A stretch of DNA of 34,437 nucleotides from assembly GCA_028707255.1 (NCBI GenBank), contig JAQTUQ010000015.1, positions 1-34,437 of the forward strand, written 5' to 3'. This document shows positions 20,415 through 32,420 of the stretch, one piece after another. Under the pieces are notes generated by a model. The model did not search any database, was not told the origin of the DNA, and worked only from the letters and a program-made list of their open reading frames with translations. Both the position numbers and the translations under genes were made by a program. The number at the start of each line of letters is the position of its first letter. Position 1 is the stretch's first letter. The stretch comes from Dehalococcoidales bacterium. Its GTDB lineage: Bacteria; Chloroflexota; Dehalococcoidia; Dehalococcoidales; UBA5627.

Positions 20415-20570
20415 CTAGACTTCGTTCTCGAGAATCTTCTTTTTCAGGGTTTCCCATTCGCTCTTTTTCAGAACGCAGAGGTTACCCTCTTCCCCGATTT
20501 CGACCTTTTCCTCGTCGATTTTTACCACGGGGCAGCAACTCTTCTCGCCGCAAAGGGTAATAATTTTCAT
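20415..20570 (-). CDS. Small Cys-containing protein, 51 residues
   Basis: This short gene is well supported. ATG (20568-20570, minus) is preceded by GGAGG at ideal spacing, a promoter lies at 20616-20643, and an intrinsic terminator follows the stop. The protein begins MKIITLCGEKSCCPVV, goes on KIDEEKVEIGEEGNLCVL and ends in a charged helix WETLKKKILENEV. Four cysteines (7, 12, 13, 32) suggest metal or redox binding. The pattern of a Cys-rich beta hairpin plus helix is seen in small conserved proteins of Dehalococcoidia and Firmicutes, but I cannot name the family. Confidence 0.8.
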   Translation of the reverse strand: MKIITLCGEKSCCPVVKIDEEKVEIGEEGNLCVLKKSEWETLKKKILENEV

Positions 20571-20615
20571 TTTCCAACCTCCAAGATTAATTTATACATC
20601 CCAGTATATAAAAAC

Positions 20616-20653: not shown

Positions 20654-20702
20654 TCACAAATCGGCGACAATATCTCATATAATTACCAGAACATATGTGC
20701 TA
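20654..20702 (+). promoter_or_regulatory. Terminase operon promoter with 16-bp SOS-like operator
   Basis: TCACAA (20654-20659), an 18-bp spacer and TATAAT (20678-20683) point to a start near 20690. The start is covered by the imperfect dyad CAGAACATATGTGCTA (20687-20702). The same dyad with two changes occurs at 25590-25605. The core GAAC-N4-GTGC is one base off the Gram-positive SOS box GAAC-N4-GTTC. Confidence 0.55.
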
Positions 20703-20779
20703 TTATTATCGATGACAGATAACAACCCGCAAATTCCCCGCTATTTGTCTTTAAAGAATCGATGCGCAGGAGAAAAGAG

Positions 20780-21136
20780 ATGACCGAGAGAACAGGAAGA
20801 GGAGCACCGACAGGCAACCAGTATGCACGCAAGCACGGTTTTTATTCGCGCGTTCTGGATGAAGATGAGCAGAACGACTTCGAGCAGGCAACAGAAGTTT
20901 ACGGCATCGATGATGAAATAGCACTGCTGCGAACCAAAATAAAATCCGTTTTGAGGCACGACCCGGAAAATATAGAACTGGTTATGAAGGCTTTGACAAC
21001 CCTTGGCGGGCTGGTAAGAACCAAATACAACATCGGCAAAGAGGATAAAGCCGGACTCAAGGAAGCCATCTCGAACGTCTTGAAGGATGTCGCTCTGCCG
21101 CTGGGTATCACCATCGGGAAGCTCTTTGATAAATAG
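20780..21136 (+). CDS. Phage terminase small subunit-like protein
   Basis: Likely DNA-recognition subunit of the phage packaging motor. Seen: the N-terminal RGAPTGNQYARKHGFYSR motif, which matches the GAPxGNxNAxKHG(F/Y)YS signature of terminase-small-like proteins, followed by a helical body (118 residues in total). I choose ATG 20780 because AGGAG lies 7 nt upstream; an in-frame ATG at 20762 would add six basic residues. It comes first in the phage module, downstream of an SOS-like operator, and overlaps terL. Confidence 0.8.
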   Translation: MTERTGRGAPTGNQYARKHGFYSRVLDEDEQNDFEQATEVYGIDDEIALLRTKIKSVLRHDPENIELVMKALTTLGGLVRTKYNIGKEDKAGLKEAISNVLKDVALPLGITIGKLFDK

Positions 21137-22496
21137 GCTGCGCCTCTACCAGAAAGAGATCGCCGTAGCCGTGCTGGAGAGCATTTTTCACCATAAGGGG
21201 ATTACCTTTTCGGTGGAAATTGCGCGCCAGGGAGGCAAGAACGAGCTTTCCGCCCAGCTCGAACTGCTTTTATTAACATTATTTATGTCTAGCTCGAAGA
21301 ACCTGGTAAAATGCGCCCCGACCTTCAAACCGCAGGCTTTGATTTCAATGGCACGCTTGAAAGACCGGCTGAACGATGCCGGGTTTGGCAACATCTGGAC
21401 GGTGGAACAGGGACATATTATCAGGCTGGGCGACTGCCGCGCCGTTTTTCTTTCTGCCGAGCAGTCGGCAAATGTCGTCGGCAACACCGCCCATATTCTT
21501 TTGGAAATCGACGAAGCGCAGGACGTCGGCAAGGAGAAATACAGCAAGGACTTCAAGCCGATGGGCAGCACCACCAATGTAACCACCGTGCACTATGGCA
21601 CCGCCTGGGACGATTCTACCTTGCTGGAAGAGGTCAAGCAATGCAACCTGGAACTGGAGAGAAAAGACGGCGTCAAGCGGCACTTCCGCTACGACTGGCA
21701 GGAAGTCGCTAAATACAATCCGGATTATCTTTCATATATCGAAGCCGAGCGTGAAAGGCTGGGTGAAAACCACCCGCTTTTCCGCACGCAGTACTGCCTG
21801 CTCCCCGTCTGTGGCGGAGGCGGTTTTCTGGATGCACAGCAAAGGGCGCAATTACAGGGAATCCATCCGCGCCTGCATCAGCCGCAAAAAGGCAGGACGT
21901 ATATAGCAGGAATAGATATTGCCGGAGAAGCATCGGAAGATGCCCTGCTGAAGAACCTGAAGCCGATGCAGGATTCGACGATTGTTACTATCGGTGAACT
22001 GGACTTTTCCCGAACGGACGATATACAGAAGCAGCCGCAGATTAATATCGTCGAGCATTATAGGTGGACCGGAAAAAAGCACACCGATTTATATCCGCAA
22101 CTGGTCGATATACTGGGTAAGGTCTGGAACTGCCGAAGAATTGTAATCGATGCGACAGGCATCGGGCTGACGGTAAGCTCGTTTTTAAGAAAAGCGTTGG
22201 GGGCAAGAGTAATTCCTTTCACTTTTACTTCGAGTTCAAAATCCGGACTCGGTTTCAACCTGCTGGCCGCCGTCAACTCCGGCAGGTTGAAGATGTATAC
22301 CGCCGACGGCTCGCAGGAATACGGTGAGTTTTGGCAACAGGCGGAGAAAGCAAAAAGCTGCTACCGCCCCAATCAAACTATCAACTTTTTTGTCGAACAG
22401 TCTCAGGGGCACGATGATTTTTTAATGAGCCTGGCTCTGCTTGTCGAAGCTGGTAAAGACTGTGAGATGCGAAAGGCTAAGGGAATGGGTAATTAA
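21126..22496 (+). CDS. Phage terminase large subunit
   Basis: ATP-driven DNA-packaging motor with nuclease. Counting from TTG 21126 (456 residues): a Walker A variant ARQGGKNE at 33-40, Walker B ILLEIDEAQ at 124-132, and a RuvC-like nuclease with Asp264 (YIAGIDIAGEA), Asp342 (RIVIDATGIG) and Asp430/Asp431 (SQGHDD). All catalytic residues are present, so it looks intact. The TTG has GGGAAG just upstream and overlaps the end of the small subunit gene by 11 nt; an in-frame ATG at 21087 is the alternative. Closest in type to siphovirus-like terminases; no close relative can be named from sequence alone. Confidence 0.92.
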   Translation: MINRLRLYQKEIAVAVLESIFHHKGITFSVEIARQGGKNELSAQLELLLLTLFMSSSKNLVKCAPTFKPQALISMARLKDRLNDAGFGNIWTVEQGHIIRLGDCRAVFLSAEQSANVVGNTAHILLEIDEAQDVGKEKYSKDFKPMGSTTNVTTVHYGTAWDDSTLLEEVKQCNLELERKDGVKRHFRYDWQEVAKYNPDYLSYIEAERERLGENHPLFRTQYCLLPVCGGGGFLDAQQRAQLQGIHPRLHQPQKGRTYIAGIDIAGEASEDALLKNLKPMQDSTIVTIGELDFSRTDDIQKQPQINIVEHYRWTGKKHTDLYPQLVDILGKVWNCRRIVIDATGIGLTVSSFLRKALGARVIPFTFTSSSKSGLGFNLLAAVNSGRLKMYTADGSQEYGEFWQQAEKAKSCYRPNQTINFFVEQSQGHDDFLMSLALLVEAGKDCEMRKAKGMGN

Positions 22497-22601
22497 TATA
22501 TCCGTAGGGGCGACCAATGGTCGCCCGCCTGTTTCGTACGGACAATGACCTTCCCTACAGATGAAAATCAGACTATTCGGGTGAGATAAATTCATTTATT
22601 T

Positions 22602-22718
22602 ACCTCACCCCTAACCCCTCTCCGCATGCGGAGAGGGGTATTTTTGCTTTTCACCTAGCGCATATTAAATTTACCCCCTTCTCTGATTTCGGAGAAGGGG
22701 GACAGGGGGATGAGGTTT
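22602..22718. repeat. ACCTCACCCC-ended double-hairpin element, copy 1
   Basis: Termini are ACCTCACCCC (22602-22611) and GGGGGATGAGGT (22705-22716). Inside lie the 24-bp perfect palindrome at 22615-22638, followed by TATTTTTG (it may end terL transcription), and a second hairpin CCCCCTTCTC/GAGAAGGGGG (22674-22702). Bases 22674-22718 are identical over 45 nt to 29132-29176. Upstream, GGGGCGACCAATGGTCGCCC (22506-22525) is another palindrome. The rest of 22497-22855 holds no gene. Confidence 0.75.
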
Positions 22719-22853
22719 CCCACATCCCATATCCTTCGTCTCGACCAGTCGGGACTCCAGCATGACAATCCGAAATTATCTTTGCAAGCGTTCCTGGAAG
22801 GACAGCGAAGTCCCGATTTCATAGGGACTCATTCCTCGCAAAGACAGTGAGTC

Positions 22854-22890
22854 CTAAAAAAAATTACCCCCTCTGAAAACGAGGGGGTAA
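22854..22890 (-). terminator. Terminator of the IPT/TIG surface protein gene
   Basis: On the minus strand a 10-bp stem TTACCCCCTC/GAGGGGGTAA (22864-22873 and 22881-22890) with a 7-nt loop is followed by eight T residues: a strong intrinsic terminator. Confidence 0.9.
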
Positions 22891-22924
22891 CGTATATCTG
22901 ATTTATTTACTTGCGGGCTTAACT

Positions 22925-25390
22925 TTAGTAAGAGCTGTAAGCCATTCTTCTGCCCAGCCAGATGGCAAATATGAAGACTACCACGACACCTATGCCTATC
23001 CAGACCCACATCAGCCAACCGGGCAAGCCGCCGCCGACCGTAAAAGTGTTAACAGCGCTGGTTGAAGAGTTGCTGGCGCCATCCGTAGCAATTACTCTCC
23101 AGTAATACTGCCCGCCATCAGCCAGTTTCGGCAACTGTTCAGCCTCGGTTAAAGTATATGTGGATGCTGTTAAACCGGCTTTGTTCAATACAATATTGCT
23201 GAAACTGCTGTCTGTCGCAACCTGCAAGGTATAGGTTACAGGCAGACTGGGATCGGTAACATCGCTCCAGTCGAAGGTTACAATACCTTTTTCCTCGGAG
23301 GCCTGTAAAGGCAGGGACAGTGTCGGCGCTGCCGGAGCAGTTGACTCCATGGTAAACGTTAAATTGACCGTATTGATTCCGTCGGATACTTCAACCGTGT
23401 GAACGCCGCCGGTGCTTGCTGGAATCGGGAAGGTAGCGTTGGTAAAAGCTCCGGTTATCGGAAGTACACCTGTTGCGGCAACCGTGCCGTTATACTTAAT
23501 CGTCAGCTGTCCGCCTGCGCTAAAGCCGCTACCGTTTACAGTAACAGAAGTCCCCACGTTTCCACTTATCGGGGTCATGGTAGCGCTGGCAGTTACGGTA
23601 ATTTGAGCTGTTTTACTGGTAGTACCATCGCTAACGGCTAAGGTATGAAGACCGCCGGCAATGGAAGGAATGACAAATGGAGCTGTAAAGCCGCCGGTAG
23701 CATTGGTAGTAATGTTCGCAACACCCGGTATAGCTACTCCATCGATGGTAAAGGTAATATTTCTACCTGCACCGAAATTAGCACCGGTAACCGTAATCGT
23801 TTCACCGACTTTACCGCTGTTGACATCCAGAGCTATCGAAGCGTCTACTATGCTGAAATTGGCGGTCAGCGCGTTACCTGCTGTTATCGTTACAGTATGA
23901 GAGCCGGTTGCCGCAGCAGGAACCGTAAAACTGGCTACGAACCCACCGGTGGCATTCGTAACAGCAGGCGTAATCACTACTGAAGTACTATCGAACATCG
24001 CCATAATCGTAGTGCCCCCGGCAAAGCCTTTACCGGTTATGGTTACTGTCGTTCCGGCAATACCCTGTGTTTTATCCAGGCTCATTTTCGGTGTAACCGT
24101 ATATGTTTGTTGTATAGTCCCCACCTTTATAATATGAGCTCCGCATACGGCAGCCGGGACTGTGATTTGCTGGCTGAAATTGCCGAGCGCATCTGTAGTA
24201 ACGGTAGCTACAATCTGCGTATCGAACAGAATATTTACACTGGAATTGGGATTAAAATTAGTTCCGGTAACCGTCACGGTATCATCAACATTACCTGTGC
24301 TATGGCTTATTGTAAGAACGGAATTCAAAAGAACCTGGAAGGTAGTCTGCGCATTTATAGCAGTGCTGTCTTCGTCTTCCGCCTTAACAGTATACGTTCC
24401 GGCAGCTAATCCACTCGGAATGGGCATAGTGATTGTAAAACTGCCGAAATTAGTAGTCCTTTTATAAGTAGCATCAGTAACCCAGGTAAAATCGGTCGAA
24501 GCTACAGCAACCCCGTTTAAAAACAGGATTATTCCATTCCTGTAAGCAAAACCGGTGCCGTTAATTGTCAGCACGGTTCCCGCTTGACCGGATGTAGGTG
24601 TAATAATCAGATTAGATTTAACTGTAAAATTAAACTCGAATTCAGCGCCGGACTCTTCTCCGGTAATTTTTATTTTCTGTACACCCTTTATGCTTTCCGG
24701 AATCTCGAATATCAATTCAAAGGTGCCGTCTTCTTCAGTGAAAGGATTACCTACGGTGCCGCTGATATCCCTGTTGGCAAAGTTTACTATCAGGGCTTCA
24801 TCGGGGGCAAAACCGGAGCCGGTAACAATAACCTCATCGCCGACATAGCCGTTATCTTTATCGATTTCTGCTTCGGCGATACCCATTAATCCAAATTCCG
24901 CAATACCCAGTATCTTCGTATCATTATAAGCAGGTACACTACCCGATGTAGGGAAATATTGCACAGCATAGAAATAATAAATTCCGCCATGCAGACTCGT
25001 CAGATTTACTGGGCCGTCGGTAAGGCTACTCGGAATTGAAAGCGTGGTTATTTGAACGCTTCCGGGACTACTTGATGAAGTTAAAGCTAAGCCTTCCCAT
25101 TGCTTATAAGTAGTCACTTCCGTTCCTATATCGTCGCCTATATTTGCTTTCTGGTTAGAGAAATAGAAAGTAAAATGTGTTGTGGTGCTACCGGTTAATG
25201 TTAAAGAAAAACTATCTCCGGGTTGCCCCTTAGCTTGTCCGTAATATGGATTGGTTGCTATAGTTCCCTGTGTATTTACAATCACCAGACTATTAACAAC
25301 CGCCGCCGAAGCAATAGAAGCCGGAAGAACCGTCAGCATTAAAGCTAATGTAACAACCACTCCCAGCGTTCGCAATATTCCCTTTTTCAC
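22925..25390 (-). CDS. Secreted, membrane-anchored surface protein with IPT/TIG repeats
   Basis: Large envelope protein (821 residues). Seen: GTG start with GGGAGGA upstream; signal peptide 1-29 with ASA cleavage region; an N-terminal beta domain (about 30-170); six IPT/TIG-like units starting near residue 181, each marked by GxxG-x-x-V/I-x-V/I-x-G-x-x-F (e.g. GYVGDEVIVTGSGF, GIAGTTVTITGKGF, GNVGTSVTVNGSGF); a fibronectin-III-like domain (APTLSLPLQ to NTFTVGGG); and a C-terminal membrane helix with basic stop-transfer GRRMAYSSY. It is probably a cell-surface or S-layer-associated protein exposed outside. It lies antisense between terL and the HTH gene with its own promoter and terminator, so it is not part of the phage operon, whether resident host gene or phage-carried extra. 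Confidence 0.85.
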   Translation of the reverse strand: MKKGILRTLGVVVTLALMLTVLPASIASAAVVNSLVIVNTQGTIATNPYYGQAKGQPGDSFSLTLTGSTTTHFTFYFSNQKANIGDDIGTEVTTYKQWEGLALTSSSSPGSVQITTLSIPSSLTDGPVNLTSLHGGIYYFYAVQYFPTSGSVPAYNDTKILGIAEFGLMGIAEAEIDKDNGYVGDEVIVTGSGFAPDEALIVNFANRDISGTVGNPFTEEDGTFELIFEIPESIKGVQKIKITGEESGAEFEFNFTVKSNLIITPTSGQAGTVLTINGTGFAYRNGIILFLNGVAVASTDFTWVTDATYKRTTNFGSFTITMPIPSGLAAGTYTVKAEDEDSTAINAQTTFQVLLNSVLTISHSTGNVDDTVTVTGTNFNPNSSVNILFDTQIVATVTTDALGNFSQQITVPAAVCGAHIIKVGTIQQTYTVTPKMSLDKTQGIAGTTVTITGKGFAGGTTIMAMFDSTSVVITPAVTNATGGFVASFTVPAAATGSHTVTITAGNALTANFSIVDASIALDVNSGKVGETITVTGANFGAGRNITFTIDGVAIPGVANITTNATGGFTAPFVIPSIAGGLHTLAVSDGTTSKTAQITVTASATMTPISGNVGTSVTVNGSGFSAGGQLTIKYNGTVAATGVLPITGAFTNATFPIPASTGGVHTVEVSDGINTVNLTFTMESTAPAAPTLSLPLQASEEKGIVTFDWSDVTDPSLPVTYTLQVATDSSFSNIVLNKAGLTASTYTLTEAEQLPKLADGGQYYWRVIATDGASNSSTSAVNTFTVGGGLPGWLMWVWIGIGVVVVFIFAIWLGRRMAYSSY

Positions 25391-25457
25391 TAATTTCCTC
25401 CCCTAATAATTTCTTGTTTATCCGCCTTGAAGTTTTGTATTTAATATATTGTTATCT

Positions 25458-25486
25458 AGGATAGACTTCTAGAACATTTTTGTCAA
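25458..25486 (-). promoter_or_regulatory. Promoter of the IPT/TIG surface protein gene
   Basis: On the minus strand a consensus TTGACA (25481-25486), a 17-bp spacer and TATCCT (25458-25463) are seen. A TAGAACA half-site (plus strand, 25470-25476) lies in the spacer, matching one half of the dyad at 25590-25605. Confidence 0.65.
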
Positions 25487-25579
25487 GCTAATCCATACGT
25501 AATTAATAACGTATTCAGCTATAAAAAGATAGCTTCCTGAAGATAATATTTTTTACCATGACTTTATGACAAAATACTG

Positions 25580-25609
25580 TTGACCTTTTTAGAACATTTG
25601 TGCTATTTT
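25580..25609 (+). promoter_or_regulatory. Promoter of the Cys-cluster/HTH gene with SOS-like operator between -35 and -10
   Basis: TTGACC (25580-25585), an 18-bp spacer and TATTTT (25604-25609). The imperfect dyad TAGAACATTTGTGCTA (25590-25605) fills the spacer, the classic position for a repressor operator. Confidence 0.6.
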
Positions 25610-25662: not shown

Positions 25663-25941
25663 ATGGATATGGAAACAACGCTGGATGCTGAGACGGACTT
25701 ACTCCCCGAGCACTGTCACTACCGCGACGAAGGCTGCGAACTGGCAGAGTCTTGCCTTAACTGTCCTTTTCCGGAATGCATTTTCGATGAACCGGGAGGC
25801 AAAAGGAAGTTGCTTATGGAACGGAGAAACGGCGAAATCGCCCGGCTGTATGATAATGAAAAGAAGAGTGTTAAAGAACTGGCGCGCATTTTTAACCTCA
25901 GCATCCGCACCATTCAAAGAGCGCTCAAAGAACAACGTTAA
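25663..25941 (+). CDS. Cys-cluster plus helix-turn-helix DNA-binding protein
   Basis: Small regulator-like protein of 92 residues. Seen: an N-terminal cysteine cluster at 18, 25, 31, 34 and 39 (CX6CX5CX2CX4C, containing ESCLNCPFPEC), probably metal-binding, and a C-terminal helix-turn-helix (about 65-90, KSVKELARIFNLSIRTIQRAL) of the resolvase/Trp-repressor-like kind. GGAG precedes ATG 25663; ATG 25669 is an alternative. It sits between the terminase and the portal genes and has the SOS-like operator in its promoter. It could control late phage genes, or act with the terminase at a packaging site; neither is shown. Confidence 0.75.
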   Translation: MDMETTLDAETDLLPEHCHYRDEGCELAESCLNCPFPECIFDEPGGKRKLLMERRNGEIARLYDNEKKSVKELARIFNLSIRTIQRALKEQR

Positions 25942-26078: not shown

Positions 26079-27464
26079 ATGGCAAGCGATAATTTTAACC
26101 CGTCTCATCTGGAACAACTGGATTTGGAACGTATGCGCAATTACCGCCAGATGCTGGATTTTTACAACGGCAGCCAGTGGCAAAACCGCAGCATCCGCAG
26201 CGAAAAACAGCTTTCCTTCAACTATGCGCGGGCAGTTATCGACAAGGTAACCGCCTATATGATGGCGGGAGCACTCTGCAAGGTGGATGCCGACGACGAC
26301 TCCGAAGAAGCAAAAGGGAGAGCCTTAAACGCGGAAAAGGCATTGCAGCAGGCATATGCCGATAACAACCTGGAGCAGCTGGATTTCGATACCGAAACCG
26401 ATTGCGCCATACTGGGCGACGCCTGCTATAAAGTAACCTGGGACACAATAAAAAAGCGTGTAAGAGTGACCGCCCCCGATGTATCAGGCATCTACGCCTG
26501 GTGGCTGGGAGACGATAGCTCCAAAATATGGCGCGTTGCCTCGAAATACAGCCTCACCGCCGATGAAAGCGTATTACTGTACGGCATTAAACCGGCAGGA
26601 AAGACGGCAAAAATAGTCGAGCTGTGGACGGACGGCCTCTTTGAATTGTGGCTGGACGGTAGCCTGATTGAGAAGAAAGCCAATCCCTACGGGTTTATCC
26701 CCTTCGTTATCTTTCCCAACCTGCGCGAACCCAAAAAGTTCTGGGGAAAATCGGATATCACACAATTGGCGGAACCTCAATGCGAACTCAACCGCGCTAT
26801 GAGCCAGCTATCACGCATCCTGGAGCTATCGGGCAACCCCATCGCCGTGCTGGAAAACGTGGAGGAATCGGAGGATATCGCCGTCAGCCCGGGGGCGGTC
26901 TGGAATATACCCGAAGAAGCCAAGGCCTACCTGCTGGACTTGTTGCAGGGTGGAGGGGTCAATCTGCATATCGAGTATATCAACCTGCTTTACCGCACCC
27001 TGCACGACCTCGGCGAATCGCCCCGCGCCACCTTCGGCAGCACCTCCGGCAACTCATCGGGAGTGGCGCTGGAAATCGAGATGCAGCCGCTCCTGCAAAA
27101 GGTCTGGCGTAAAAGGCTGATACGCAACACTGCCTACTGCGAGCGCAACAGGCTGATTCTAAGGCTGGTCTCGAAATATACGGGGCAGGACTTCGGGGAT
27201 TGCAGATTGCAAATGGTCTGGAGCCCGGTACTGCCGCGGGATATGACAGGGCTGGTTTCCAGCGAGCAGATACTCGTCCAGAACGGCATCCATTCCAGGC
27301 GCACCGCCATGTCGCAAATCGGCATCAAATCACCCGAATCCGAGTTTGCAAGCTGGCTGGAAGAGAGGGCTGCCATATTGAAGATGAATAATGAACACAA
27401 CACTAAGACTGCGGTCAAGATGCGGGAGAGAGCAGAGATAAATACCGCAGCGGAAGGGTTTTAA
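26079..27464 (+). CDS. Phage portal protein, SPP1 gp6-like
   Basis: Forms the dodecameric portal at the capsid vertex through which DNA is packaged. Seen in 461 residues: N-terminal YRQMLDFYNGSQW and NYARAVIDKVTAYMMAG, typical of the SPP1-type portal; a beta-rich wing (about 105-200), PNLREPKKFWGKSDITQL, then the stem/crown region with a long helix (AQPQCELNRAMSQLSRI-like) and SSGVALEIEMQPLLQKVWRKR. AAAGGAGAG lies before the ATG. Length and order are intact and it runs directly into the scaffold gene, so it looks functional. GC and codon use resemble the host, unlike a recent arrival. Confidence 0.9.
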   Translation: MASDNFNPSHLEQLDLERMRNYRQMLDFYNGSQWQNRSIRSEKQLSFNYARAVIDKVTAYMMAGALCKVDADDDSEEAKGRALNAEKALQQAYADNNLEQLDFDTETDCAILGDACYKVTWDTIKKRVRVTAPDVSGIYAWWLGDDSSKIWRVASKYSLTADESVLLYGIKPAGKTAKIVELWTDGLFELWLDGSLIEKKANPYGFIPFVIFPNLREPKKFWGKSDITQLAEPQCELNRAMSQLSRILELSGNPIAVLENVEESEDIAVSPGAVWNIPEEAKAYLLDLLQGGGVNLHIEYINLLYRTLHDLGESPRATFGSTSGNSSGVALEIEMQPLLQKVWRKRLIRNTAYCERNRLILRLVSKYTGQDFGDCRLQMVWSPVLPRDMTGLVSSEQILVQNGIHSRRTAMSQIGIKSPESEFASWLEERAAILKMNNEHNTKTAVKMRERAEINTAAEGF

Positions 27465-27465
27465 A

Positions 27466-27948
27466 ATGATAGCGGAGGTTTTTGGATTGGAAGCAGAAAC
27501 GAAGATACAGGAAGAGACTATGAATCAAGAGGAGGCAGAGAGCAGCGAAAACGAACTGAGCGGATTGAAAATCAAGCTTGGCGAACTTGAAAAAGCATCC
27601 GCTGGAAAAGAACTGAAAATCAACTTGCTTGAGCAAAAACTGAACGAGATATCGAAACAGCAAAAGGAAACGGAAAACAGGCTCTCAACTGCCGTTAACA
27701 GCTACCGGGCATTGATTACCGGTAATAATGCCGGGATACCGGACGAACTGATAAAAGGCGACACTATCGAGGAAATCGACGGCTCGCTGGTTAAGGCAAA
27801 AATACTGGTTAACCGGATAAAACAGGGATTGGAGAGCGAGATTGCGGCAACGCGCATCCCCGGCGGCGCACCCGTAAGAAGCGAGATGGATATATCGGGG
27901 CTGTCCCCCATTGAGAAAATCAAGTATGCCATGGGGAGAAAAAACTAA
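27466..27948 (+). CDS. Phage scaffold-like protein
   Basis: Probable capsid-assembly scaffold, called from its position between portal and capsid genes and from its make-up. The 160 residues are highly charged and mostly coiled coil (about 30-75, SGLKIKLGELEKASAGKEL and NLLEQKLNEISKQQKE), followed by a segment resembling the C-terminal part of scaffold proteins that ends SGLSPIEKIKYAMGRKN. It starts one base after the portal stop with GGAAGGG upstream; a second ATG at 27520 is possible. No protease motif is seen. Confidence 0.75.
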   Translation: MIAEVFGLEAETKIQEETMNQEEAESSENELSGLKIKLGELEKASAGKELKINLLEQKLNEISKQQKETENRLSTAVNSYRALITGNNAGIPDELIKGDTIEEIDGSLVKAKILVNRIKQGLESEIAATRIPGGAPVRSEMDISGLSPIEKIKYAMGRKN

Positions 27949-28190: not shown

Positions 28191-29111
28191 ATGGCTTTAA
28201 CTTTAACCGAAGCTTCGAAATTATCGAACGACCTGTTACTGCGGGGCGTGGTGGAAACCGTTATTAAGGACTCACCCGTACTGCAGCGAATGCCTTTTAT
28301 CGAGGTGATGGGAAACAGCCTGACCTATAACCGCGAGAACACCCTGCCCGGTATCGATTTCTACGATGTGGGAGACACGTGGAACGAATCGACGCCCACC
28401 TTCGACCAGAAGACCGCCAACCTGAAAATCATCGGCGGCGATGCGGACGTGGATAACTTTTTAAAAGCCACGCGCAGTAATATACAGGACCTGGAAGCCG
28501 CCGTCATCGAGATGAAAGCCAAGGCGCTCCGACACAAATTCGAAGAGATTTTCATCTACGGGGATTCGGAGACCAGCATCAAACAATTCGACGGCATCAG
28601 GAAATTAATCGATACCGAAAGCGAAAGCGGGCAGGTGGTAGCGATATCGGCAAGCGGAGACACGCTGACGCTGGATAAGCTGGATGAGCTGATAGACGCC
28701 GTTAAGGGAGGCAAACCGGATATGCTGCTGATGAGCCGCCGTTCGAGGCGCAAAATCAATTCGCTGGTAAGGGGAACGGGCAGTATGCTGGCAACCGACC
28801 GCGATAGCTGGGGCAATTTTATCCAGCTCTGGGACGGCATTCCCATCGGCGTCAACGACTGGATTCTGGATACGCATACCGTAGCCGATGGCGTTGAGAC
28901 CGCCACAACCGGCGGCAATTGCTCTACCATTTATGCCCTCCAGTTCGGCGAAGGCGCACTGTGCGGTCTTTCCAGCCCCGGCTTCTTACAGGTCGAACCT
29001 ATCGGGCAACTGGAAAACAAGGACGCCTCACGCACCCGCGTCAAGTGGTACTGCTCGATGGCGCTCTTTTCATCCGTCAAGGCAGCCGCACTGATCGGGG
29101 TACAGGATTAA
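28191..29111 (+). CDS. Phage major capsid protein, HK97-like
   Basis: Likely the capsid shell subunit. In 306 residues: N-terminal helical segment (LTEASKLSNDLLLRGVVETVIKDSPVLQ), an E-loop-like stretch with NTLPGIDFYDVGD, and the DVDNFLKATRSNIQDLEAAVIEMKAKAL helix typical of the HK97 spine region, then PDMLLMSRRSRRKINSLVRGTG and IPIGVNDWILD of the axial domain. Size fits a capsid protein without an attached delta domain. AAAAGGAG lies about 12 nt before the ATG. Assignment rests on position and pattern; fold not verified. Confidence 0.82.
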   Translation: MALTLTEASKLSNDLLLRGVVETVIKDSPVLQRMPFIEVMGNSLTYNRENTLPGIDFYDVGDTWNESTPTFDQKTANLKIIGGDADVDNFLKATRSNIQDLEAAVIEMKAKALRHKFEEIFIYGDSETSIKQFDGIRKLIDTESESGQVVAISASGDTLTLDKLDELIDAVKGGKPDMLLMSRRSRRKINSLVRGTGSMLATDRDSWGNFIQLWDGIPIGVNDWILDTHTVADGVETATTGGNCSTIYALQFGEGALCGLSSPGFLQVEPIGQLENKDASRTRVKWYCSMALFSSVKAAALIGVQD

Positions 29112-29224: not shown

Positions 29225-29251
29225 AACCGGACATACTATCAAGGAGTCATT

Positions 29252-29884
29252 ATGACACTAAACGAAATAAGGACGCTGGTCAGGCGCGACCTGCGCGATG
29301 AAGACGCCAATAATTATCGCTGGAACGATGATGAAATAAACAGGCATATTTTGCACGCCGTTAAGGATGTTTCTGAAGCTATTCCGTTGCAGCAGACCGT
29401 AATTATCCCTACCACCGGCGGCTCCAGAGAGCTGGATATATCGGGCATTGCCGACAGGATTGCGATAAGGGCAGTGGAATACCCCGTAAACCGCTTTCCG
29501 AAGCATTACCATCGTTTTTCCCTCTGGGAAAATACCCTGACATTAATCGATAGCAAAATCCCAGACGGCGGAAACGCCTGCATTTACTACGAAAAGGCGC
29601 ACACTATCGACGATTCCGGTTCCAGCATTCCGGCGTATATGGAAGAACTGGTAATTTGCGGCGCCTGCGGCTATGCCGCCATCGAATGGGCAGCCTTCTC
29701 CATAAACCGCGTCAATACAGGTGGCAAAAGTACGCCTCAGGAGTTTTTACGCTGGGGAAAAACCAAAATCGATTATTTCAGAAGCAAGCTGAAAAGGATG
29801 GGGAATAAAAACCGCGTTCGCATCAGCCGGATGTACCAAACGGGTTCTCAGACAGCCTTCGAGACAACGAGTCATATGCCTTGA
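29252..29884 (+). CDS. Phage head-tail connector/adaptor-like protein
   Basis: Probable adaptor ring protein joining portal to tail, from its place right after the capsid gene and from its N-terminus. 210 residues from ATG 29252 (AAGGAG upstream): a helical N-terminal segment (MTLNEIRTLVRRDLRDED, NRHILHAVKDVSEAIP) like gp6/gp15 connectors, then a beta-rich middle (QQTVIIPTTGGSRELDI) and a C-terminal basic tail (KLKRMGNKNRVRISRMY). A longer open frame extends upstream to 28919 inside the capsid gene, but the Shine-Dalgarno picks 29252. Moderately sure. Confidence 0.7.
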   Translation: MTLNEIRTLVRRDLRDEDANNYRWNDDEINRHILHAVKDVSEAIPLQQTVIIPTTGGSRELDISGIADRIAIRAVEYPVNRFPKHYHRFSLWENTLTLIDSKIPDGGNACIYYEKAHTIDDSGSSIPAYMEELVICGACGYAAIEWAAFSINRVNTGGKSTPQEFLRWGKTKIDYFRSKLKRMGNKNRVRISRMYQTGSQTAFETTSHMP

Positions 29885-29944
29885 ATCTGGGGGTTTTGAA
29901 ATAAGTGGCGACTGCGACAGCGATTGATAAAGGAGTTAATTCAA

Positions 29945-30187
29945 ATGAGCATTTATAAAGCTGTCTGGAAAGTAATCGGCGGCAGACCATGGACATATAT
30001 ACTGCGCGATATCTGGCACAAATACGAAGGGCTGTGCATCATCGCGCTGGTAGCCGTCGGGGCTTTGCTGGGGCACTGGTTCTGGCCGCAGCTCTCGTGT
30101 TTATTTTTAACATTCACCGGCGGTTATATTGCCGGGCACCTCTTTTGGGGCAAAGAGTATATCCCCGACCAGAAAGGAGATGAGTGA
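29945..30187 (+). CDS. Small phage-module membrane protein
   Basis: Unrecognised, 80 residues from ATG 29945 with AAAGGAG upstream (an in-frame TTG at 29924 would extend it). Two hydrophobic helices (about 31-47 and 51-67) around a short loop GHWFWPQLS, with a charged C-terminus EYIPDQKGDE. A holin-like role is possible from size and topology, but holins rarely sit here without an endolysin. Its end overlaps the start of the hub-like gene by 4 nt (GTGA), so the two are translationally coupled. Confidence 0.65.
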   Translation: MSIYKAVWKVIGGRPWTYILRDIWHKYEGLCIIALVAVGALLGHWFWPQLSCLFLTFTGGYIAGHLFWGKEYIPDQKGDE

Positions 30188-32193
30188 ACCGCATGAAAAA
30201 TCTTTCCGATACTCTGATTAAGACACAAAAACAGGCGAGCCATATTCCGTACGTCGAACTGGAAGCGGTCAACAGGATAAACGGAGTTACAAAGCTGCAT
30301 TGGCAGAGGCTGTATAGCGGAACAGAGGAGGAATACTTTCATGCCGTAACGTTAGCCGCGGACGGCTCTTTAATCCGGGCAAGAATCACTCCTACTTCAG
30401 ATTCCCGTAAATTATATGTACAGCGCATTGTAAACCCCGGGGAAGATTCCGCTTTCGGCTCATGGCATTATACCGGCCAGTATAATGCCGTAATTGTCGC
30501 CGCCGCATCACTGGGAGCAACCGTTTCCATCTTCTGGATTAAGAGCGACCGCAAGATACAATGCATTATAAGCAATGATTACGGAGCGACATGGTCGGAC
30601 GCACAGCTTGTCGACTATTCCCCGACTACCGCCATTAACGGCATCTCCGCCTCTTATAAGCCAAACGGCGATTTAGCGCTATTTTTTGCCGACCAATCTG
30701 CTCTTTACGTTAAAAAGCTGGTTAACGGACAGTGGCAGGCAAAATCCGCCTGGGATAAGACGACCGGGAATCTTTCGGGGGTATCGGCTGTTTATGATAA
30801 CGATTGGAACCTGTTCGTTACCGGGAAAGACTCCAATGGCAACTTCAGGTTATGGAGCATTGTTTATGGAGACGGCGGAAACATCCCCGCCGGCAGTTGG
30901 GGAGAACTGCAAACGCTGGCCGAAGCGCCTTCCGACGGCAATTTCAGCTATCATCATGCGTTTTTAGATAAACCGGATGCTTTCAGGTGTTTCTATATCG
31001 AAAAGTACGGCGGCAACGAGACTTATTCCCAACCTTTTTCAACCCATACCATAGGAAACTTCGCAGATAACCTCTGGCTCGAACCGCAGCCGTTCAACCT
31101 GTCTTCAGAGTACGGACTGGCAATCGCCCATAATGAAAATTATTGCTGGTTATCCTGCGCAAACAGTGTCTGGAGAGCACCGCTTTCCGAACAGAGATTT
31201 GACATTACAAACGATATTCTTTCACTGAAACAGGAAACAATCGGATTCGAAAGCAGGCTTACCGTCGAACTTGTAAAAGATGACACAAAACATTCCTCCC
31301 TGCCGCCCCCGCTCGATATCGGCTGCCGGCTGAACTTCAACCCGGGTTATATAACCGAAAACGGATGCGAAGTCTGCGGCGGACAATCGTATACTCTGCA
31401 AGCATACGAATATATTAATTCGAAAGGCTCGGCAAAACTGGTTTTGTATGCGGTAAACGGATGGGACAACTTAAACCGCTGGACGGCAAGACAGCAGTAC
31501 TGCTGGAACCGGGATTCAGAAGATATGAGCGTTAAGGATATACTGGCTTTTATACTGGCAAGAGCCGGATTAAAACTGGAGGTTATCTCGGCATCGGATG
31601 CTATCGGGAGTTTCTATCCGGACTTCAATATCAATCCCGGTACAAAGGGCGACAGTATCGTTAAAAAGCTGCTGTCGTTCGTGCCCGACCTGCTTTTCAT
31701 AGAGGGGTATACTGCCCGTCTGGTAAATCCGCTGCCGGATGATAATCCGGTGTATTCATATTCCGCACCGCAGATTGACGGCATGCATCCGATTCTCGCA
31801 GGCAGATACAGAACCGAAGCCTCCGATTATAATCATATCCGGGTGGAGGGACTCGACGACATCAACAACCAAGCCCTGATTCTTAATTGTTATGAATATG
31901 CGGACATAGAAAATAGCTATGCCCGCTTTCTATCCGTCGAGGACGTCAATATCGGCTCTATCGATGCGGCAAGAAGCCGGGGCGAGGCGATACTGAGACG
32001 CTATGAGATAGAAAATTTAACAGGATATATCGAAATCCATCCGAACTGCGGGCAGCAGTTATATGACGTTATCGATATAACCGATAGCAAAGCGGGGCTG
32101 GTAAATGAAAAGAGACGTATTACCGGTTTAAAAACCCTTTTTCTTCCCGCCTGCGGCAAGTATCTGCAAACACTGCTGTTGGGAAAAGTATAA
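30184..32193 (+). CDS. Beta-propeller plus tail-hub-like phage structural protein
   Basis: The 669-residue protein joins two parts. The first (about 40-330) is beta-rich with an Asp-box S-x-D-x-G-x-T-W at 130-137 (SNDYGATW) and repeated YNDN-like blade motifs, i.e. a sialidase/BNR-type propeller. The second (about 340-669) resembles baseplate-hub or tail-tip domains: an LQAYEYINSKGSAKLV strand pair, SVKDILAFILARAGLKLEVIS, and a DSIVKKLLSFVPDLLFIEGYTARLV segment. It may bind cell-surface sugars and form the distal tip. Starts GTG 30184 with AAGGAG; overlaps the upstream stop. Functional call is inference. Confidence 0.65.
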   Translation: MNRMKNLSDTLIKTQKQASHIPYVELEAVNRINGVTKLHWQRLYSGTEEEYFHAVTLAADGSLIRARITPTSDSRKLYVQRIVNPGEDSAFGSWHYTGQYNAVIVAAASLGATVSIFWIKSDRKIQCIISNDYGATWSDAQLVDYSPTTAINGISASYKPNGDLALFFADQSALYVKKLVNGQWQAKSAWDKTTGNLSGVSAVYDNDWNLFVTGKDSNGNFRLWSIVYGDGGNIPAGSWGELQTLAEAPSDGNFSYHHAFLDKPDAFRCFYIEKYGGNETYSQPFSTHTIGNFADNLWLEPQPFNLSSEYGLAIAHNENYCWLSCANSVWRAPLSEQRFDITNDILSLKQETIGFESRLTVELVKDDTKHSSLPPPLDIGCRLNFNPGYITENGCEVCGGQSYTLQAYEYINSKGSAKLVLYAVNGWDNLNRWTARQQYCWNRDSEDMSVKDILAFILARAGLKLEVISASDAIGSFYPDFNINPGTKGDSIVKKLLSFVPDLLFIEGYTARLVNPLPDDNPVYSYSAPQIDGMHPILAGRYRTEASDYNHIRVEGLDDINNQALILNCYEYADIENSYARFLSVEDVNIGSIDAARSRGEAILRRYEIENLTGYIEIHPNCGQQLYDVIDITDSKAGLVNEKRRITGLKTLFLPACGKYLQTLLLGKV

Positions 32194-32207: not shown

Positions 32208-32420
32208 ATGATAATAGAAAAAGGGCTGCTTAAAAGTTTCAACTCGGTAGACTATATAGCCGATGTCATGATTAACGGAAGTTATAAGACACCTATGGAA
32301 AGAGTCTCTGTGGCCCGCAATATCCCTTCTGCCGCGATGATTGACGAAAGGCAGGTCGCAGTGCTCTTTTACGACGGGTATAATTCCAGAAATGCCGTCA
32401 TAATAGCTGTTTACGATTAA
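32208..32420 (+). CDS. Small OB-like phage tail/spike protein
   Basis: 70 residues, unrecognised by name. AAGGAG lies 8 nt before ATG 32208, 15 nt after the hub-like gene. The pattern (DYIADVMINGSYKTPMERVSV, ARNIPSAAMIDERQVAVLF, DGYNSRNAVIIAVYD) is that of a small beta-barrel, resembling the OB domain of phage spike or baseplate proteins. It is the last gene of the phage module; it probably works with the hub-like protein. A structure prediction would settle it. Confidence 0.6.
   Translation: MIIEKGLLKSFNSVDYIADVMINGSYKTPMERVSVARNIPSAAMIDERQVAVLFYDGYNSRNAVIIAVYD

Follow-up and report, generated by a model that had tools for sequence, protein, structure and literature searches.

Putative LexA operators at the promoters of a phage-derived gene module in Dehalococcoidia

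Gene transfer agents are known experimentally in a handful of groups, and most lack a clear induction protocol (PMC11841831). In work cited in PMC6363796, LexA is stated to act on the Rhodobacter agent through CckA. For the gene transfer agent cluster of Dinoroseobacter a LexA site has only been predicted (PMC6473078), while the repressor of the Caulobacter agent, RogA, is LexA-like and without the cleavage residues; in Caulobacter the agents help cells survive DNA damage (PMC9632790). A small terminase subunit (TerS) without a DNA-binding domain is a trait of the known gene transfer agents (PMC11841831). To judge from its title, the 2009 report of Stanton (cited in PMC11841831) describes VSH-1 of Brachyspira as a gene transfer agent whose gene set is divided. 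The Gram-positive LexA box, GAAC-N4-GTTC, has been described in Bacillus and Mycobacterium (PMC3323433). The literature searched, which was open-licence only, yielded neither a report of a gene transfer agent in Dehalococcoidia nor a description of a LexA box for that class.

The window analysed here is a stretch of 34,437 nucleotides from a Dehalococcoidales bacterium, contig 30 of a 1.64-Mb assembly that is 98% complete. It carries a module of phage-type structural genes with two LexA-box-like dyads at its promoters (Table 1).

The two dyads and the module behind them

A first-pass annotation of this DNA had claimed two 16-bp dyads, and both were confirmed at exactly the positions that it gave. 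It had placed the second in the spacer between the -35 and -10 elements of the gene for a helix-turn-helix (HTH) protein, which is borne out by the TTGACC and TATTTT (25604-25609) hexamers around dyad 2 and by 59 loci of relatives. The first dyad had been drawn over the start of the terminase transcript, a claim that probably does not hold; it apparently used TATAAT at 20678-20683 as the -10 hexamer. That candidate was rejected, as TATAAT is absent from relatives outside the genus, whereas a TGC-TAnnnT directly after the box is kept. Because of this conservation, the terS -10 is likely TATTAT at 20701-20706, and dyad 1 would then lie in a spacer as well. With up to three mismatches to the consensus allowed, the window contains five strand-matches where 1.1 are expected, a number reached by 1 of 100 shuffles; each dyad scores on both strands in this count.

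Table 1. Promoter elements and genes in and around the module (window coordinates)
Feature	Position	Strand	Remarks
Dyad 1, LexA-box-like, CAGAACATATGTGCTA	20687..20702	+	terS-terL promoter; core AGAACA-TA-TGTGCT at 20688-20701
Probable extended -10 of terS promoter, TGC-TATTAT	20698..20706	+	Overlaps 3' half of dyad 1; from sequence and relatives
terS, terminase small subunit	20762..21136	+	124 aa; aligns with no more than the central part of full-length TerS profiles
terL, terminase large subunit	21087..22496	+	In the terS-terL operon
TIG-domain surface protein	22925..25390	-	Divergent; lacks its own LexA box; probably outside the regulon, merely adjacent
-35 of HTH-portal promoter, TTGACC	25580..25585	+	From sequence; TTGAC kept, with at most slight variation, in 59 aligned loci
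Dyad 2, LexA-box-like, TAGAACATTTGTGCTA	25590..25605	+	In 18-bp spacer of HTH-portal promoter
Extended -10 of HTH-portal promoter, TGC-TATTTT	25601..25609	+	Overlaps 3' half of dyad 2
HTH gene	25663..25941	+	92 aa; five invariant Cys, then HTH; phage late activators match weakly
Portal protein, SPP1 gp6-like	26079..27464	+	In the operon headed by the HTH gene
Scaffold-like protein	27466..27948	+	160 aa; conserved in module; role inferred from position
Major capsid protein, epsilon15 gp7-like	28191..29111	+	Equivalog model match, E 4e-58
Head-tail adaptor	29249..29884	+	Weak SU10-adaptor-like match
Holin-like hydrophobic protein	29924..30187	+	87 aa; role inferred from sequence
Baseplate-hub-fold protein	30184..32193	+	669 aa; Mu gp44 / T4 gp27 / VgrG class
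Conserved protein, end of module	32208..32420	+	70 aa

The TerS matches start at profile position 76 or later and no HTH or other DNA-binding domain was detected in the protein; its N-terminal DNA-binding part seems, from these alignments, to be missing. In the HTH protein the N-terminal half contains the invariant residues C18, C25, C31, C34 and C39, possibly a metal site, and structure prediction is poor in this Cys-rich half; the protein is a candidate second-step activator. The fold of the hub protein rests on an AlphaFold model (mean pLDDT 81.8) with Foldseek E-values down to 5e-18. Neither an integrase nor other phage replication or integration genes were found among the main open reading frames tested in the window, the small ones being only partly covered. 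One of the short frames, Cys-containing and about 50 codons long (about 20421-20573, minus strand), lies divergently before terS. In relatives (for example loci L054, L077 and L082) the gap between the capsid and adaptor genes ranges from 0.1 to 3.5 kb with variable gene content, possibly fibre or decoration genes.

The first-pass annotation had also noted a TAGAACA half-site in the promoter of the divergent surface-protein gene. The half-site is present, at 25470, but it does not appear to belong to the system: none of the 22 relatives with both the TIG and the HTH gene has a separate box before the surface-protein gene, and what was listed as boxes before TIG genes is the HTH box seen from the opposite strand. 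This promoter was therefore rejected as a member.

The box in the genome and among relatives

The exact pattern AGAACANNTGTNC (AGAACA-N2-TGT-N-C) has six strand-matches in the genome, against five for the reversed control pattern. Absence from lexA and recA together with random occurrence genome-wide would have refuted the original proposal. The count by itself is hardly above the control; yet the matches fall in only four places (the terS promoter, the HTH promoter, lexA and C49:92262), each a short way upstream of lexA, of a particle gene or of a relative of one. Under strict matching, the regulon here consists of lexA plus particle genes. A box at lexA was found both here and in the order at large, where AGAACA-N2-TGTTC with up to two mismatches occurs before 48 of 56 lexA-family genes (no farther than 120 bp from the matched start and mostly 20-60 bp from it). 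Other SOS genes gave a divided answer: recA here lacks an upstream box and the genome yielded no Y-family polymerase gene, while boxes do precede Y-family polymerase and AlkZ-like glycosylase genes in relatives.

A single gene of the genome scored over the cut-off as lexA. Its box, CAGAACAGATGTTCTT at C42:24430-24445, reads AGAACA-GA-TGTTCT and stands directly before the start codon; AGAACAGATGTTCT precedes that codon on the 3' side of a TTGACA-N17-TAAAAT promoter. The module dyads differ from this box systematically at one core base and are otherwise identical to it. The encoded protein matches the LexA equivalog TIGR00498 (E 2e-45) and aligns with solved LexA structures, including Thermotoga LexA (3k2z); in our own reading of the alignment, Ala-Gly, Ser and Lys sit where self-cleavage requires them.

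Conservation of the box in orthologous modules, a further point on which the first-pass proposal could have failed, is extensive. Upstream of the HTH gene the box is present in 59 of 61 orthologous loci with up to two mismatches, and in 57 with no more than one; about 2% of shuffled regions match at the looser threshold. In every case it falls between the elements of a TTGAC promoter, in a spacer of 17-18 bp, so that its placement between -35 and -10, one that would block RNA polymerase, recurs in 59 loci. In the alignment most box positions carry about 2 bits, and TTGAC and TAnnnT are kept around them, while most other positions carry about 0.2 bit. A box also precedes terS in 7 of 8 scanned loci, and a motif-only scan found it at 21 terS genes. 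One module promoter in the order (L062) has a perfect LexA box. In class-level relatives the module boxes are perfect or near-perfect AGAACA-N2-TGTTCT, and in the same genomes the boxes found upstream of lexA are themselves less regular. Seven genomes of family f9 have lost the exact box at the HTH promoter, and diverged sites remain. At L345-L351, loci from complete genomes of this family (possibly Dehalogenimonas), the spacer box is diverged, and some 90-120 bp farther down, before the HTH gene, stands a second site of the AGAACA type. What takes the dyads beyond chance is site position and conservation, rather than the genome-wide motif count.

Scanning 50 genomes with AGAACANNTGTNCT alone gave 137 strand-matches, whereas the reversed pattern gave 20 (our own sums). 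A hand tally distinguished 116 sites, of which at least 82 could be assigned: 41 to HTH genes (partly by distance to the capsid gene), 24 to terS, 9 to lexA, 6 to Y-family polymerases (392-407 aa, PF00817) and 2 to an operon of the kind found on contig C49 (see below). Further targets were DUF72 genes, an AlkZ-like glycosylase and ribonucleotide reductase. Since canonical repair genes are among the targets, LexA is, on sequence grounds, the natural reader of the box. One genome, G029, accounts for about ten of the scan sites, several of which belong to a promoter-like sequence that is repeated. There (L298, L299, L302, L303) near-identical promoters with the box followed by ATTATGTTTTGACG or similar stand on several contigs, as if a repeated element bore a LexA box. 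The DUF72 genes with a LexA-type box belong to two genomes (L292, L295).

The systematic difference between module and lexA boxes lies at box position 11, which is G in 47, A in 10 and T in 2 of the 59 HTH boxes and T in 45 of 48 lexA boxes. All 59 HTH promoters have the TA and the final T of a TAnnnT -10 element, and Y-family polymerase promoters keep TGTTCT together with a consensus TATAAT. We infer from these patterns that TGTGCT is an operator/promoter compromise, in which the G completes the overlapping extended -10 (TGC-TAnnnT). AGCACA half-sites occur in lexA operators too (for example G008 and G086).

The remaining exact match belongs to contig C49, where a box at 92261-92276 lies upstream of two genes, C49a and C49b. 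The C49b product is homologous to that of a gene in the capsid-adaptor interval of loci L101, L167 and L199 (E 1e-21 to 5e-31), and the same interval in the genus of the window lacks those genes. In another species of the genus, G005, a box stands directly in front of a C49a homologue (81%). On the strength of these three observations, a particle operon appears to have been relocated and to have kept, or regained, the same box. A tyrosine recombinase gene (C49:90115-91245; L017:18116-19246) lies about 1 kb before it, and the 215-aa frame between the two has no phage-family hits.

Inheritance of the module

A capsid match was obtained in 105 of 200 relatives, usually as a single copy where present, and 80 module loci were named, mostly in Dehalococcoidia genomes. 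The capsid protein is mostly 70-80% identical across the order, compared with about 40% to the top match among 50,697 phage records. Capsid and RecA distances are correlated: a Mantel test on 26 genomes gave r 0.82 (p 0.0001), or 0.74 when family f9 was left out. Calculated against two congeneric genomes, dN/dS is 0.07-0.19 for module genes and 0.08-0.11 for the neighbouring yqeY. In 11 of the 35 loci with room downstream rpsU or yqeY was flagged, nine times within about 3 kb. The module thus tracks its host, by vertical inheritance and under purifying selection, and the whole class Dehalococcoidia appears to have kept it.

Proposed LexA control, its alternatives and related systems

We put the probability that the dyads are LexA operators and the module is under LexA control at roughly 0.87, in the absence of binding or expression data. 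The first-pass annotation had offered LexA as a possible repressor, and the lexA box, the conserved modules and the DNA-repair targets in relatives support that identification; binding and induction by damage remain inferences. In an undamaged cell, a LexA dimer on AGAACA-N2-TGTGCT would fill the spacer between the -35 and the extended -10 and exclude RNA polymerase, repressing the terS-terL operon and the HTH-portal-scaffold-capsid-adaptor-hub operon, with the C49 operon under the same control. DNA damage would produce RecA filaments and hence LexA self-cleavage, and lexA and the particle operons would be expressed together. Next, the terS promoters, which may need an activator because their -35 is degenerate (TAGCC-like), may be boosted by the HTH protein. 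This HTH step is inferred, as are particle formation and DNA transfer. The inferred product is a phage-derived particle passed on with the host chromosome, most likely one resembling a gene transfer agent; no particle has been demonstrated, and we give the gene-transfer-agent reading about even odds. The fuller proposal, to which we give slightly less than even odds, is an independent gene transfer agent lineage, class-wide in Dehalococcoidia, with structural-gene promoters directly repressed by LexA, such that after damage part of the population packages and distributes chromosomal DNA.

The departure of the module box from the lexA box at a core position (TGTGCT versus TGTTC) is one argument against LexA, as it may mean lower affinity or another binder; the recA gene without a box, the diverged f9 sites and the own-genome motif count are others. 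The dyads could be operators of some other repressor or activator, such as the HTH protein of the module, which is encoded behind one of the boxes, or a LexA-like repressor not yet recognised, and owe their likeness to LexA boxes to shared half-sites. The variant base does recur systematically (57 of 59 HTH boxes have a base other than T), LexA-like genes number two or three in some relatives, and the module box has diverged in family f9. This explanation seems improbable to us, however: the genome has only one lexA over the cut-off, the lexA and Y-family polymerase genes use the same AGAACA half-site, spacing and promoter position, perfect LexA boxes occur at the L062 promoter and at several class-level modules, AGCACA half-sites are found in lexA operators, and the extended -10 accounts for the variant base. 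That two similar 16-mers arose by chance in AT-rich promoters can hardly be entertained, even with an own-genome count barely above the reversed control; it is refuted by order-wide conservation at orthologous promoters and by the targets of the motif-only scan.

A more substantial doubt accepts LexA control and concerns the module, which might be nothing more than an SOS-inducible prophage, or a remnant in decay, rather than a host-kept particle. Every named part is a phage gene, about half of the relatives gave no capsid hit, and gene transfer agents are hard to distinguish from remnants (PMC11841831). A prophage or remnant is nevertheless the less likely reading, given one copy in most bearing genomes, a capsid far closer within the order than to any phage record, capsid distances that follow RecA, selection like that on yqeY, rpsU/yqeY neighbours that recur in several loci, and no integrase among the window proteins tested.

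If LexA does control the module, its presence across the class and its legible SOS operator lead to a direct prediction, namely that particles should appear after mitomycin C. The box also supplies a LexA consensus for the Dehalococcoidia group. Dehalococcoidia include organohalide-respiring bacteria, and movement of chromosomal DNA by the particle would bear on the spread of their genes.

The system resembles the Gram-positive LexA/SOS regulon in half-site, spacing, placement of the box over the promoter, lexA autoregulation and, in relatives, a Y-family polymerase target. It differs in a recA without a box, in a strict regulon of lexA plus particle genes, and in TGTGCT for TGTTC in the module. 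Like epsilon15-type tailed phages it has a capsid matching the epsilon15 gp7 equivalog model; unlike them, its capsid is at most about 40% identical to any phage record, and no replication or integration genes were found in the module. VSH-1, which is induced by mitomycin, shares the divided gene set, but Brachyspira belongs to another phylum. With the Rhodobacter, Dinoroseobacter and Caulobacter agents the locus shares a host-inherited, phage-derived structural cluster spread over more than one locus, a short TerS without a detected DNA-binding domain, and a link to LexA or LexA-like regulators. Its capsid fits the epsilon15 gp7 model, and it is set apart from them by a putative operator that, across a whole order of Dehalococcoidia, lies in the promoters of structural genes.
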